From contig CP022585.1 in NCBI GenBank assembly GCA_002243285.1, forward strand, positions 4,452,641-4,516,640: 64,000 nucleotides of DNA, written 5' to 3'. Below the pieces are notes generated by a model. It was not told the DNA's origin. It did not search any database and saw only the letters and a list, made by a program, of their open reading frames with translations. The position numbers and the translations under genes are program-made. This DNA comes from Candidatus Fluviicola riflensis (GTDB lineage: Bacteria; Bacteroidota; Bacteroidia; Flavobacteriales_D; Crocinitomicaceae). Positions 5,123 to 46,883 of this stretch are shown piece by piece. Position 1 is the first letter of the stretch; each line of letters starts with the position of its first letter.

Positions 5123-5181
5123 CACGTAATATTGCAAATTTACGTGGGACTAACCGGCACGTAAATTTGCAATATTACGTG
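5123..5181. repeat. perfect 24-bp palindromic hairpin, GTAATATTGCAAAT family
   Basis: The arm 5123-5146 is the exact reverse complement of 5158-5181, with an 11-base spacer. The arm contains GTAATATTGCAAATTTACG. The same core occurs in hairpins at 46823-46883 and 61354-61417. It lies 3' of the glycosyltransferase gene that ends at 5208. Confidence 0.85.
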
Positions 5182-7069: not shown

Positions 7070-7611
7070 TTCCCACGAATACACGAATTTTAGCTCGCCT
7101 AATGGACTCGCTTAATTATGATTCATCGAACAAGTCTTTTGTAAACCAAGTTGGAAGACCTGAAATTAACAACTAACCCTAAATGTAAGTCAGACACACA
7201 TAAATAGTTGATTGTTTGTTCGATATGCTCCTTTGACAAGGCGGAAATGGCTTTAACTTCCAGTATGATTTTATCATCGACTAAAAAATCAGCATAGAAC
7301 CTATGTGGTAATATGATGTCTTTATAGTGTACTTGAAATTCCCATTCTCTATCAAAAGAAATATCTCGTCTTCTACATTCATATTCCAATGCGTCTTTGT
7401 ATACAATTTCAGAAAATCCGGAGCCTAATTCACGATGTACTTCCTTACACAACCCAATGATTTCATAGGCTTCTTCCTGGTAAATTAATGTTTTCATTCT
7501 ATTTAAGTTAGCTAAAAACATCATTTATTCAAACACCTGAACACAATTTATTCATTGCATTAAACAACAGCGAGTCCGCTAGGCGAGCTAAAATTTGTGC
7601 ATTCGTGGGAA
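7070..7611. mobile_element. GxxExxY cassette with 44-bp inverted terminal repeats
   Basis: The left arm 7070-7113 (starting TTCCCACGAATACACG) and the right arm 7568-7611 are near-perfect inverted repeats: about 39 of 44 bases pair. The only gene between them is the GxxExxY gene. No transposase is present. Related sequence, without a gene, is seen at 10580-10674 and 24182-24304. The structure suggests a non-autonomous or nuclease-linked mobile unit. Confidence 0.6.
7123..7497 (-). CDS. GxxExxY protein (PD-(D/E)XK-like nuclease superfamily)
   Basis: A short protein of about 124 residues from the ATG at 7497 (another in-frame ATG lies at 7524). It has the naming motif GFSEIVY (G-x-x-E-x-x-Y), preceded by EVHRELGSG, and a nuclease-like core YADFLVDDKIILEVKA, with D...E-V-K as the PD-(D/E)XK signature. 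The end is typical of the family (LGLVVNFRSSNL). Biochemical function in the family is not established; a DNA nuclease role is predicted. It sits alone between 44-bp inverted repeats, which suggests mobility. A second family member in this window is at 41125-41559. Confidence 0.85.
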   Translation of the reverse strand: MKTLIYQEEAYEIIGLCKEVHRELGSGFSEIVYKDALEYECRRRDISFDREWEFQVHYKDIILPHRFYADFLVDDKIILEVKAISALSKEHIEQTINYLCVSDLHLGLVVNFRSSNLVYKRLVR

Positions 7612-26704: not shown

Positions 26705-26940
26705 GTGTATAAGCTTTAGTATATTTTCAAACGTCAATAGTAAATTAAAGGTTGGGTTAACCGATTTTCCGTTAACTTTTCCCGGGATCCAATCAGGTAT
26801 CTCTGATTACCTCAAATATAACAGCTATTCCTTATTTGTTTCCCCCTTTTTACCTTATAGTCGCGTTGTTTTAGTAATCTGTCAGCTGATGATCATTGAT
26901 TGCCGGTATTGGTGAAGGCTTATTTCAATCGTTTGAACAA

Positions 26941-26992
26941 AATTCTCGAATTCGCGTGTTCGCAATATTGTGAACACGCGAATTCGAGAATT
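26941..26992. repeat. perfect 21-bp palindromic hairpin
   Basis: The arm 26941-26961 (AATTCTCGAATTCGCGTG and on) is the exact reverse complement of 26972-26992, separated by GCAATATTGT. The centre GTTCGCAATATTGTGAAC resembles the GTTCGTAATATTGC arm at 61358. It is in the gap between two divergent T9SS cargo genes; nothing else is recognised in 26705-27047. Confidence 0.85.
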
Positions 26993-27047
26993 TCATTTTC
27001 AGATTAACCCAAAAAGCCGTATTTTTTCACCTATCAAACAATCAATT

Positions 27048-39711: not shown

Positions 39712-41049
39712 TTACAATACCAATGCCAACATTTTTTCCATAACAAACGGTTCATTCCAGTTTTCGTGAATGTTTTCCAGTTGCATTACCTGATCCATGA
39801 TCGTTTGCTGGTACTGTCCATTTTTCAGCGCATCGCTGTAGCGAATGTGGCTAAAGGTGACTTGTGAGTACAACGGCATCCATTTTTCGGGATAGAGATT
39901 CGAGAATTTCGCTTCGATTTTTTTACGCAATAAGAAATCCGGATCGGCCGTCAAATCACGCATTTCAACGTAATTAAAAAGTGCCAAATCCAAAATCGCA
40001 TTTCCATCGGGAACGCGTTGTTCCGAAAAACGATCCAGTAAGCCGTCCCAATTGCCGTTGGCTTCTTTGTACATTTCGTCGAAAACGGTGCAATCTTCAA
40101 ACCCGCAATTCATTCCCTGGCCGTAGAAAGGTACAATGGCATGAGCGGCGTCACCCAGCAACAATACTTTATCCTGGTAGTTCCACGGTGTGCAGCGAAC
40201 CATAATCAGCGACGAAGTCGGATTGTCAAAATAATCGTCTAATAAAGTAGGCATCATCGAAACTGCATCAGGGAATGTTTTTTCGAAGAAAGCAGCAACC
40301 TGTTCACGTGTTGTCAAACTTTCAAACGACGTTTCGCCTTTCATCGGGAAAAAGAGTGTGCAGGTAAAACTGCCGTCGAGATTGGCCAATGCGATCATCA
40401 TAAATTCACCGCGCGGCCAGATGTGCAGGCAGTTTTTATCGAGTTTGTGCGAACCGTCTTCGTTGGCAGGAATCACCAATTCCTTGTAACCGTGATCGAG
40501 GTATTTCTGCGAATAATCAAACAAGGTTGATTTCTGCATGCGCATACGCACCGCTGAAAAAGCGCCATCCGTAGCAAAAATGCGGTCGAAAGAATGTTTT
40601 TCGGTCGATTTTTCTTTGGTATTATTGAAGGTCAGTGTATTGGAGGCGAGTTCCAGGTCCTGGCATTTCCGGTCGAAAAAGTACTTGATATTCGGATAAT
40701 CATCCGCAAGGTTCATGAGTTTTTGGTTCAATCCACCACGTGAAACGGAGTAGATGGCCTGACCTTCCTTTCCGTAAGGCTGGTAGGATAACGATCCGTC
40801 CAGCGCATGCATACAACGACTGTGCATCGGGATGGAAATCGCGCGGATATCTTCCGCAATTCCGGCCAGTTCCAAGGCTTTCCAACCGCGATCAGACAAC
40901 GCAAGGTTGATCGATTTTCCGCTGATTAATTTGGCTTTTCGTAAATCTTCCCGACGCTCAAATACCGAGACATTGTATCCTTTCTGCGCCATAAGGATCG
41001 CCTGTAGGCTACCTACCAATCCTGCTCCGACTACTGCAACGTTTTTCAT
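39712..41049 (-). CDS. kmo: kynurenine 3-monooxygenase
   Basis: A 445-residue FAD-dependent aromatic hydroxylase. The Rossmann start has VAVVGAGLVGSLQAILMAQ, followed by FERREDLRK and the KMO-type SINLALSDRGWKAL. The second FAD motif is LLGDAAHAIVPFYGQGMN, with NCGFEDC typical of KMO. It converts L-kynurenine to 3-hydroxykynurenine using NADPH and O2. The kynureninase gene lies upstream on the same strand, with a GxxExxY cassette between them. Length is normal. Confidence 0.94.
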   Translation of the reverse strand: MKNVAVVGAGLVGSLQAILMAQKGYNVSVFERREDLRKAKLISGKSINLALSDRGWKALELAGIAEDIRAISIPMHSRCMHALDGSLSYQPYGKEGQAIYSVSRGGLNQKLMNLADDYPNIKYFFDRKCQDLELASNTLTFNNTKEKSTEKHSFDRIFATDGAFSAVRMRMQKSTLFDYSQKYLDHGYKELVIPANEDGSHKLDKNCLHIWPRGEFMMIALANLDGSFTCTLFFPMKGETSFESLTTREQVAAFFEKTFPDAVSMMPTLLDDYFDNPTSSLIMVRCTPWNYQDKVLLLGDAAHAIVPFYGQGMNCGFEDCTVFDEMYKEANGNWDGLLDRFSEQRVPDGNAILDLALFNYVEMRDLTADPDFLLRKKIEAKFSNLYPEKWMPLYSQVTFSHIRYSDALKNGQYQQTIMDQVMQLENIHENWNEPFVMEKMLALVL

Positions 41050-41104
41050 GTTTATATTTCTAATTACTTCAATGCTAAACTAAATGGTCAACCTTTCCTT
41101 GTGT

Positions 41105-41549
41105 CTTTGTGTCCTCGTGGTTAGCTAATCTTGAAGAACACCGTTAATTACTCTTTTGAATCCATTCTTTATTAGAGGAGCATTAAAGTTGATCAATAAC
41201 CCTAATTTACAATTTGTCAACTTGAGATAAGTTATTACTTGTGCTGTGTGAAGATTGTTCAAACATTCAACGGCCTTTAGTTCAATAACGACTTTATTAT
41301 CAATTAAAAAATCAAGCCTGTATCCAACTTCCAGTTCCAAATCATCATAAATGAGAGGTAATTTTTTTTGTCTTTCAACCAAAATATCATACTGCTCTAA
41401 TTCATAGTTTAGACAAGCTTCATAAGCAGATTCCAATAATCCGGGACCCAATTTCTTATGTATACACATACATGCTTTAAATACTATTTCTGCTATTTCG
41501 TTTTCTGTCGCCACAACTATTTCATTTTTAACCACACGAGGACACAAAG
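41105..41549. mobile_element. GxxExxY cassette between kynU and kmo
   Basis: The left end CTTTGTGTCCTCGTGGTTAG (41105-41124) and the right end (41528-41549) are inverted repeats, with a 2-base insertion in the right copy. The gene's stop codon (41125-41127) abuts the left repeat and its N-terminus is encoded through the right repeat. No transposase. It splits two genes of one pathway on the same strand. Confidence 0.6.
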
Positions 41550-41559
41550 AATTGGACAA
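41125..41559 (-). CDS. GxxExxY protein (PD-(D/E)XK-like nuclease superfamily)
   Basis: About 140 residues with the family core IHKKLGPGLLESAYEACLNYE (GLLESAY is the G-x-x-E-x-x-Y motif) and the nuclease-like GYRLDFLIDNKVVIELKAVE (D...E-L-K). It ends LGLLINFNAPLIKNG. There is no in-frame ATG near the start: the first codons available are a TTG at 41559 and GTGs inside the right inverted repeat, so the exact start is unsure. It belongs to the same family as the protein at 7123-7497 but is clearly divergent. Function in the family is unproven. Confidence 0.85.
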   Translation of the reverse strand: MSNSLCPRVVKNEIVVATENEIAEIVFKACMCIHKKLGPGLLESAYEACLNYELEQYDILVERQKKLPLIYDDLELEVGYRLDFLIDNKVVIELKAVECLNNLHTAQVITYLKLTNCKLGLLINFNAPLIKNGFKRVINGVLQD

Positions 41560-41611
41560 TAATTATTGATACAACTAATTTGCTCAGATCCTGCAACGCG
41601 CTGTTTGAATT

Positions 41612-42895
41612 TCATCCCAAAATCGCTTCTTCCATAAATTTCCCGAGGTAATACACATCCTCAAAGGAATTGTACAACGGCACGGGAGCCACACGAATCA
41701 CGTTCGGTTCGCGCCAGTCGGCCACTACACCATTTGCGCTCAATGCATCAAACAAGGCTTTTCCTTTTCCGTGAACGAGGATGGATAACTGTGCCCCTCT
41801 TCTATGTTTTTCACGCGGTGTAATGATTTCAAAACGACATTGGTCCTGGTATTTTGCTGTTAATTCATCCAGGATAAACTCCAGGTAACCGGTAAGCAGG
41901 ACGGTCTTTTCATTCAAACGTTCCATTCCCACTTCGTCGTAAATTTCCAGCGAAGCCCAATGAACGGCCATGCTGATTACTGGAGCGTTGCTCAACTGCC
42001 AGCCTTCAGCGCCTTCCATCGGTTTAAAACCTGGTTCCATCTGAAAACGTGTTGATTTATCGTAACCCCACCAACCGGCAAAACGTGGCAGATCAGGCCT
42101 GTTGGCAAAACGTTCGTGAACATACATTCCGGAAACACCGCCCGGCCCCGAGTTCAGGTATTTATATGAACACCACGCCGCAAAATCAACGTCCCATTCG
42201 TGCAATTTCAAGTGAATATTTCCAGCGGCATGCGCTAAGTCGAACCCAACAATGGCTCCAACAGCGTGGCCTGCTTTGGTAATGGCAGGCATATCCATCA
42301 ATTGTCCAGTATAATAATTCACACCGCCAATCATGACCAATGCGAGTGTATCGTCCAATTCGGCAATTTTTGCCAGCACATCTTCTTCGCGCAATAAGTG
42401 TTCACCATCACGCGGAGCGAGTGCTATCAAATCCACATCCGGATTCAAACCGTGAAAACGCACCTGCGATTCCAACGCGTATAAATCACTCGGAAATGCT
42501 TTTGCTTCGCAGAGGATTTTGGTGCGCGTTCCCGTAGGACGGTAAAACGACACCATCAATAAGTGTAAATTCGTTGTTAATGAATGCGTTACCACTACTT
42601 CTTTTGGTAAAGCTCCGACTACACGGGCCGCTTTTTCTGTCAGGAATTCATGGTACGAAAACCATGGATTTTTTCCGTGAAAATGGCCTTCAACGCCCCA
42701 TTTTGCCCAATCGTCCATTTCCTGCTGCACATAGGTTTGTGCCGATTTTGGCTGCAATCCCAATGAGTTTCCTGTGAAATAGCGTACTGCTTTCTCATGG
42801 AATGTTGGAATATAAAATCGATCACGGTATGACTTTAACGGGTCGGCAGCGTCTAGTGCCTGAGCGGCTGCGAGAGAATTCACAAATTCGGCCAT
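41612..42895 (-). CDS. kynU: kynureninase
   Basis: A 427-residue fold-type I PLP enzyme. Family marks: RYFTGNSLGLQPKSA near the start, THSLTTNLHLLMVSFYRP, FDLAHAAGNIHLKLHEW, and the PLP lysine in WCSYKYLNSGPGG. A C-terminal arginine-containing WREPNVIRVAPVPLYNSF binds the substrate carboxylate. It cleaves kynurenine or 3-hydroxykynurenine to (3-hydroxy)anthranilate and alanine. A minus-strand -7 box at 42958-42965 gives a leader of about 55 bases; hemL is divergent. Confidence 0.95.
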   Translation of the reverse strand: MAEFVNSLAAAQALDAADPLKSYRDRFYIPTFHEKAVRYFTGNSLGLQPKSAQTYVQQEMDDWAKWGVEGHFHGKNPWFSYHEFLTEKAARVVGALPKEVVVTHSLTTNLHLLMVSFYRPTGTRTKILCEAKAFPSDLYALESQVRFHGLNPDVDLIALAPRDGEHLLREEDVLAKIAELDDTLALVMIGGVNYYTGQLMDMPAITKAGHAVGAIVGFDLAHAAGNIHLKLHEWDVDFAAWCSYKYLNSGPGGVSGMYVHERFANRPDLPRFAGWWGYDKSTRFQMEPGFKPMEGAEGWQLSNAPVISMAVHWASLEIYDEVGMERLNEKTVLLTGYLEFILDELTAKYQDQCRFEIITPREKHRRGAQLSILVHGKGKALFDALSANGVVADWREPNVIRVAPVPLYNSFEDVYYLGKFMEEAILG

Positions 42896-46822: not shown

Positions 46823-46883
46823 CCACGTAATATTGCAAATTTACGTGTCAAAAGAACCCGCGTAAATTTGCAATATTACGTGG
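46823..46883. repeat. perfect 23-bp palindromic hairpin, GTAATATTGCAAAT family
   Basis: The arm 46823-46845 (CCACGTAATATTGCAAAT and on) is the exact reverse complement of 46861-46883, with a 15-base spacer. It shares a 22-base core with the hairpin at 5123-5181. It lies 3' of the membrane protein gene ending at 46933. Confidence 0.85.

Follow-up and report, generated by a model that had tools for sequence, protein, structure and literature searches.

Among described systems, those closest to the locus presented here are the REPIN-RAYT systems, in which, according to the available part of PMC3116915, repeats occur as hairpin-forming inverted doublets, the gene of the enzyme is flanked by the same repeats and the two co-evolve. 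The protein encoded at our locus belongs to the GxxExxY family, and in the accessible text of PMC8934634, a GxxExxY domain adjoins a reverse transcriptase at the position expected for a cas4 gene. Our literature searches found no description of the hairpin repeats of Bacteroidota and other phyla that are reported below.

The DNA analysed is a stretch of 64,000 nucleotides from Candidatus Fluviicola riflensis, henceforth the window, in which a preliminary description had noted a GxxExxY gene enclosed by inverted repeats between a kynU-like and a kmo-like gene (Table 1). Comparison with genomes of the same genus, the family and a broad set of species suggests that this insert may belong to a widespread class of inverted-repeat elements, of which it would be a gene-bearing member.

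The kynU-kmo cassette

The cassette is bounded by a perfect 16-bp inverted repeat that extends imperfectly to AACCAC(AC)GAGGACACAAAGA, the arms differing by two bases as originally described, and the left arm continues through a third 8-mer to read CACGAGGA CACAAAGA CACAAGGA (minus strand, 41097-41124). By a hand estimate assuming even composition, the chance of a perfect 16-mer pair within 700 nt is about 0.01 per 64 kb. Compared with flank pairs taken across genomes, a stricter test whose null shares the repeat grammar and has orthologous copies among its pairs, the copy reaches p 0.058. An Rfam search of positions 40500-42000 returned no family, and a strict two-unit pattern had no match within the 64-kb window.

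The single gene between the repeats matches PF13366 (E 2.9e-41, 140.9 bits against a curated cut-off of 22) and, as its sole NCBIfam match, TIGR04256, GxxExxY (144.6 bits, cut-off 35). It lies on the minus strand, as do both neighbours, and its TAG stop codon (41127-41125) touches the left repeat; both the co-directional arrangement and the abutting stop had been pointed out before. The preliminary description also had the reading frame run from repeat to repeat, with the N-terminus encoded through the right one. An open frame does extend over 41125-41559 and spans the right repeat, but that part is probably untranslated, since homology begins only around TENE and a GTG is found at 41514-41512, 15 nt from the repeat; in 50 of 80 named homologues, ATG directly precedes the matched part. 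GTG 41514 is the gene's probable start, so the N-terminus need not cross the right repeat, and a frame from repeat to repeat is unsupported as biology.

Read by eye, the arms face outward (GTGGTT-gene-AACCAC), which is the opposite of the other GxxExxY copy of the window (the 7070 copy) and of most copies with a scorable layout. Their units, again by eye, end in G; the class rule described below gave no label, and the protein falls in a supported set of 74 rows of the protein tree, comprising 59 AG and 15 unlabelled rows.

Table 1. Features of the two GxxExxY cassettes and their neighbours (window coordinates)
Feature	Position	Strand	Basis or remark
Left repeat, 3′ side of gene, CCTTGTGTCTTTGTGTCCTCGTGGTTAG; three iterated 8-mers, AACCAC end adjoins gene	41097..41124		perfect arm 41104-41119
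Right repeat, 5′ side of gene, AACCACACGAGGACACAAAGA; inverted copy plus 2 bases	41530..41550		perfect arm 41535-41550
GxxExxY / PDDEXK_3 predicted nuclease gene; probable GTG start 41514-41512, TAG stop 41127-41125	41125..41514	-	ORF and profile matches
kmo-like gene, downstream of cassette	39712..41049	-	name from preliminary description; adjoins kynU match in 12 other genus genomes
kynU-like gene, upstream of cassette	41612..42895	-	name from preliminary description
Arm of the other GxxExxY cassette, AT class, TTCCCACGAATACACGAATTTTAGCTCGCCTAATGGACTCGC...	7070..7112		
Inverted copy of the 7070 arm	7569..7611		
Second GxxExxY gene, inside its repeat pair	7123..7497	-	

All 14 genus genomes contain a kmo match, and in 13 of them, Ca. 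F. riflensis included, a kynU match lies directly upstream; in G003, no kynU match was found within the 1.5 kb examined beside kmo. Among the 13 genomes with the pair, only Ca. F. riflensis has a GxxExxY gene between the two, in a spacer of 562 nt as compared with 30 to 178 nt in the other 12, so the gene is far from being carried at this place by every relative. The insertion that had been proposed gains support from this absence in 12 spacers, whereas a clean empty site, sought in 13 genomes, could not be aligned because the spacers are too diverged.

In eight of the 11 other kynU-kmo spacers tested (the 30-nt spacer of G006 was left out), the best hairpin exceeded all 20 shuffles, only just so in G002 and G011; it failed to do so in G012 (a tie), G007 and G010. 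These hairpins include ACCACAAAGGCAC / ACCACGAAGGCAC in G001, with a similar one in G008, GACTTAAGAC and AATTGAAAA types in other spacers, and a CCTCC type in the closest genome, G009. The differing hairpin families indicate repeated turnover at this place, which leaves no clean junction to read. The encoded protein is closer to copies from other genera (61% within the family, 63% over 123-125 residues in Flavobacterium and Dyadobacter) than to any copy of its own genus (54%); an arrival from outside the genus would fit these values, which do not amount to proof.

The Ca. F. riflensis genome contains five GxxExxY genes, each flanked by an inverted repeat, with several different repeat sequences. 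By rule, the 7070 copy is of the AT class. Its cassette (7070-7611) sits at a synteny breakpoint relative to the sister genome G009, in which about 97 kb of one contig separate the two flanks; an arm was seen at neither junction. The window also holds two near-identical perfect hairpins around CACGTAATATTGCAAATTTACG, a further hairpin family (5123-5181 and 46823-46883), and, at 26940-26993, a 54-bp almost perfect palindrome without a loop, made of AAATTCTCGAATTCGCGTGTTCGCAAT and its mirror copy. Elsewhere in Ca. F. riflensis, four TIGR02436 four-helix-bundle genes (L095-L098; C1:384008, 1561404, 345058 and 164960) sit in inverted repeats of another iterated grammar, for instance AATTGAAAATGTAAAATTGAAAAGGGG (27 of 27 paired) and AATGTTGAATGCTTAATGTTGAATT (25 of 25), which were read without a shuffle control and suggest a parallel system.

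Repeat grammar and the GxxExxY protein

GxxExxY matches occur in 13 of the 14 genus genomes (0 to 13 per genome, fragments and broken copies counted) and in 88 of 150 family genomes. A scan of 84,980 species genomes, which leans to the clade of the kynU-kmo copy because its protein served as query, yielded 88 relatives, 80 of which were kept as named copies. In 68 of these 80, flank pairing beat each of 40 shuffles in 2-mer blocks; for copies with a broken frame, the downstream flank starts within the gene. The 68 paired copies include Flavobacterium, Dyadobacter, Nostoc and Calothrix as well as a single bin each of Roseiflexus and of a gammaproteobacterium; the records under the titles Rhizobium, Bdellovibrio and Porphyromonas come from metagenome bins and may be misassigned. 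Within the genus, the best flank pairing of 32 of 52 copies lies above the 95th percentile of 2450 cross-genome pairs, two of them (L033 and L043) being, by eye, of a grammar other than the one described here. No arm pair above the thresholds was found for 12 of the 80 named copies, among them a planctomycete copy that did not beat its shuffles, nor for 20 of the 52 genus copies, which include the kynU-kmo copy; the genomes compared include fragmented assemblies. Pairing can be complete, as for the arm TTTAACCGCAAGGTTCGCTAAGGTTTACGCAAAG in L175 and L178 (34 of 34 paired) or the 40-bp perfect pair of L004, which contains CCACAGATGCGCAGATTT. GxxExxY genes usually lie between inverted repeats of iterated C-R-C-N-N-A-(T/G) units.

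An arm is a short array of such units, spaced at about 8 to 12 nt, that follows a CCAC/ACCGC end; read by eye, arms begin with CCCAC/ACCGC. Of 98 elements with two or more units per side, 97 have the same unit class on both arms, and just five contain both last letters, T and G. Units are 0.911 identical within an element, compared with 0.797 between elements of the same class (the maximum of 300 draws being 0.828).

Arm class also follows the clade of the protein, which supports the earlier idea that gene and repeat type co-evolve. On a FastTree phylogeny of 181 proteins, it changes four times over 136 labelled elements, against a mean of 26.6 after shuffling; 60 class shuffles gave at least 24 changes, and none of 500 was as low as observed. 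The other 45 proteins, with the kynU-kmo copy among them, are unlabelled because their units are too few or mixed, and details of the tree are uncertain since only 39 of its 177 inner branches are well supported.

When 198 copies were scored by rule from their nearest motifs, 80 had the gene within the pair and seven had it between arms that face outward; the others have no motif, a motif on a single side, or two that point the same way. This rule misses the outward layout of the kynU-kmo copy. Of 304 control stretches of 350 nt away from the gene, 11 contained a forward motif and 14 a reverse one. A further arrangement is seen in L053 (G031:C10), in which the GxxExxY gene and hairpins are tandemly duplicated with a 699-bp period and a complete AG-class hairpin lies on either side of the gene.

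The predicted model of the GxxExxY protein has a pLDDT of 91. Foldseek returned no match at E 0.001 or better; its best match was SSO0001, a Cas4 protein (4ic1; E 8.7e-3, probability 1.00), and VIA-align gave Z 10.1 over 101 residues (rmsd 3.8) for the same pair. Restriction-type and Holliday-junction-resolvase folds come next at Z 6-9 (the restriction-type ones at Z 7-9), a likeness that may reflect a common arrangement only. In 38 sequences, E77 and K79 are invariant and D67 is present in 90% or more, and QxxxY-like residues are conserved as well. With its conserved catalytic D and E-x-K and the core fold of the model, the GxxExxY protein is predicted to be a conserved Cas4-like PD-(D/E)XK nuclease; fold and residues support nuclease chemistry and no particular substrate. 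A PDB sequence-profile search gave no match up to E 10, and PHROGs none either; PADLOC reported a weak partial match of the kynU-kmo copy to PDC-M36A (E 0.0043) and none for the 7070 copy.

Gene-free hairpins and the history of shared sites

A 64-base arm of one Ca. F. riflensis cassette has 66 matches in that genome, and the AT-arm pattern CCRCRRATNCRCRRAT has 144 there and 105 in the sister genome G009, compared with 0 and 1 for the reversed pattern. With both arms required to lie 50 to 320 nt apart, 29 loci read in Ca. F. riflensis comprised 24 distinct gene-free hairpins (median 122 nt) and five unpaired arms, and 20 loci read in G009 comprised 11 distinct hairpins (median 124 nt) and six unpaired arms. 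These 35 distinct hairpins in two genomes are dispersed, hairpin-forming inverted doublets of the kind that marks REPIN-RAYT systems. In G009, the first units are GAAT on both arms in three hairpins, AGAT on both in eight and mixed in none; in Ca. F. riflensis, 20 are GAAT/GAAT, one is AGAT/AGAT and three differ, a GAAT share that is biased because the loci were the best matches to a GAAT arm, and AGAT arms are also listed there by pattern search. Within AT hairpins, the two inner boxes (GCTCGGCTAACGCNCTCGC, GCGCTCCTAACGGCAGCGC and variants) differ from each other. The AG pattern, unfit for the 8-nt spacing of the kynU-kmo copy, is scarce in Ca. F. riflensis (three matches).

The hairpin sites that were aligned between species look intergenic. 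Inspection of hairpin ends by eye showed no target-site duplication, with no clean empty junction at hand. Gene-free hairpins of the GACTTAAGAC type are found in spacers of several species (L109/L110, L013, L015 and L016), and CCTCC...GGAGG-type hairpins (L008, L242, L309 and L007) occupy spacers that, in related species, contain a cassette or other hairpins.

The preliminary description missed two points: many of these repeats lack a gene, and some of the sites that do carry one are old, inherited vertically and subject to purifying selection. At site S1, presumably the Lrp-YtxH spacer, an orthologous cassette is shared by six species and inverted in one of them (G010); G004 and G012 retain remnants and G002 none, the neighbours are different in G000, G007 and G009, and a search at E 1e-40 had no hit in G003 or G006. 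Inverted cassettes at the same site were seen at three sites (L086/L089, L083/L091, and L030 versus five others), calls for which assembly could matter in the fragmented G004. Among five species, the S1 arms are 0.80-0.81 identical and the 40 nt before the ATG 0.83, as compared with 0.28 for the spacer from the left arm to those 40 nt and 0.56 for the 60 nt outside. Of 24 pairs tried for dN/dS, ten had saturated dS; 13 of the 14 computable pairs gave 0.02 to 0.13, and the near-identical L081/L084 gave 0.76. One species (L026) has an early stop in its GxxExxY frame. The gene is under purifying selection at several sites, and the arms are conserved at one.

Other sites have changed their content. 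Where Ca. F. riflensis has the L003 cassette, the hairpin of G009 lacks a gene and shares the two inner boxes with it but has other outer units on both arms, which either gene loss or gain would fit. In the two species that share the orthologous gene-free hairpin L255/L293, both arms are AGAT in one and both GAAT in the other; the L262/L271 hairpin has AGAT in both species. In a comparison of G004 with G012 (about 95% alike), one spacer has an AT hairpin in G012 and a hairpin of another family in G004; the stretches compared gave no clean empty AT-hairpin site, many of the other gaps being assembly N runs.

Candidate mechanisms and known systems

We favour, at about even odds, the view that these elements constitute a REPIN-RAYT-like system in which a predicted nuclease takes the place of the HUH transposase and drives the spread of the hairpins. 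The arms are found as gene-free hairpins of about 120 bp too, and a few pairs enclose one GxxExxY gene. The nuclease would recognise arms of its own class, as a duplex array or as a cruciform, and nick or cut there; repair from another copy would carry hairpins to new places, overwrite resident hairpins such that both arms change together, flip interiors and occasionally bring the gene along. By this route, the nuclease may move or convert hairpins. A more far-reaching version, which we hold tentatively and rate somewhat short of even, sees GxxExxY as the founding enzyme of a new hairpin mobile system, a PD-(D/E)XK counterpart of REPIN-RAYT whose class-specific arms would be cut, spread, converted and inverted by repair in at least Bacteroidota and Cyanobacteria and, judging from single records, Chloroflexota and Gammaproteobacteria.

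Mobility as such was not observed; neither a clean empty site with its junction nor a target-site duplication was seen. The outward layout of the kynU-kmo copy, being the rarer one, counts against the proposal, as do the scarcity of the AG pattern in its genome and the named and genus copies for which no arm pair above the thresholds was found. Among the 150 family genomes, two or more arms in excess of two per gene copy were counted in 36 of 88 with the gene and in 6 of 62 lacking it (p 1.8e-5). This association of spare arms and gene is not significant within genera (934 of 5000 permutations), nor, at threshold 1, does it hold outside the genus (30/75 versus 20/61); two genomes lacking the gene have many AT arms (G027, 15; G046, 17). 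Owing to the within-genus result and to such genomes with arms alone, the link between nuclease and hairpins draws mainly on the shared arms and the class code. A raw count of genomes with at least two arms (53/88 versus 6/62) was set aside, as it includes the genes' own arms.

Y1_Tnp matches are present in 11 of the 14 genus genomes, in a transposase survey that covered Y1 only, and small dispersed inverted-repeat elements are, in the accessible part of PMC3116915, typical of MITEs and REPINs. Both points would suit ordinary MITEs or REPINs moved in trans by a RAYT/IS200 Y1 or a DDE transposase, with GxxExxY as a passenger, an explanation we consider unlikely. Twelve Y1 loci were read among 23 matches listed, and none carries arms within 700 nt; G002, G003 and G004 hold 32, 38 and 13 AT arms and no Y1 match (G003 and G004 being only 83-84% complete), while G006 has three Y1 matches and no arms. 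Nor would a passenger be expected to show what GxxExxY shows, namely the same family in arms of the same grammar across several phyla, with arm class following the protein tree.

Just as doubtful in our eyes is a host origin of the arms, as terminators, mRNA stabilisers or nucleoid sites that are homogenised by template switching during replication and into which GxxExxY inserts as a freestanding homing-type nuclease. This would account for related genomes holding different hairpin families in the same spacer, as if these were wanted or targeted, for the joint change of both arms and for the gene lying inside the arm pair in the 80 copies scored so by rule. However, the left and right inner boxes of AT hairpins stay different, which plain arm-to-arm copying would erase, and the match of class and clade needs the nuclease to choose its hairpin.

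Quite improbable, finally, is an RNA stem around the transcript whose pairing is kept by selection on RNA processing, as in 23S rRNA intervening sequences: these likewise hold one ORF between terminal inverted repeats (PMC4990558, available part) and the four-helix-bundle genes of Ca. F. riflensis also lie in inverted repeats (read without shuffle control), but arm mismatches fall mostly in letters between units, uncompensated (by eye, uncounted), and cassettes flip relative to neighbouring genes at three sites.

Should the nuclease-driven system hold true, it would account for a large set of hairpin repeats found in Bacteroidota and in other phyla, and give a protein family whose function is unknown its first role. 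One claim open to test is that repeats can be spread by a stand-alone Cas4-like nuclease in the absence of a transposase, and the code linking nuclease clade and arm class yields direct predictions on binding.

With REPIN-RAYT systems, as far as the available account of these extends, the GxxExxY elements share many gene-free inverted doublets, a low-copy enzyme gene in the same repeats and co-diverging types. They differ in carrying a predicted PD-(D/E)XK nuclease instead of a Y1 transposase, in arms made of iterated units of variable class, in up to 13 matches per genome (fragments counted) and in the presence of both orientations at one site. Since no Y1 (HUH) transposase flanked by the same repeat was found among the 12 Y1 loci read, the elements fail the defining enzyme test and are not filed under REPIN-RAYT. 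Like the 23S rRNA intervening sequences, to judge from the part of the source available, GxxExxY cassettes hold one small ORF in terminal inverted repeats and no transposase, but the protein family is unrelated to the S23 four-helix-bundle ORF (the kynU-kmo copy matching only TIGR04256 in NCBIfam), the cassettes lie between protein genes and not within rRNA, and the four-helix-bundle genes of Ca. F. riflensis have another repeat grammar. Short terminal inverted repeats, high copy number and the lack of an internal transposase are shared with MITEs of DDE insertion sequences; in contrast to these, the hairpins described here gave no sign of a target-site duplication when read by eye, and their arm sequence varies among the elements of one genome while agreeing within most elements. 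Cas4 itself has an iron-sulphur cysteine set. GxxExxY proteins resemble Cas4/RecB-type PD-(D/E)XK nucleases in predicted fold, D-ExK and QxxxY-like residues, and differ from them as a single domain of about 125 residues.
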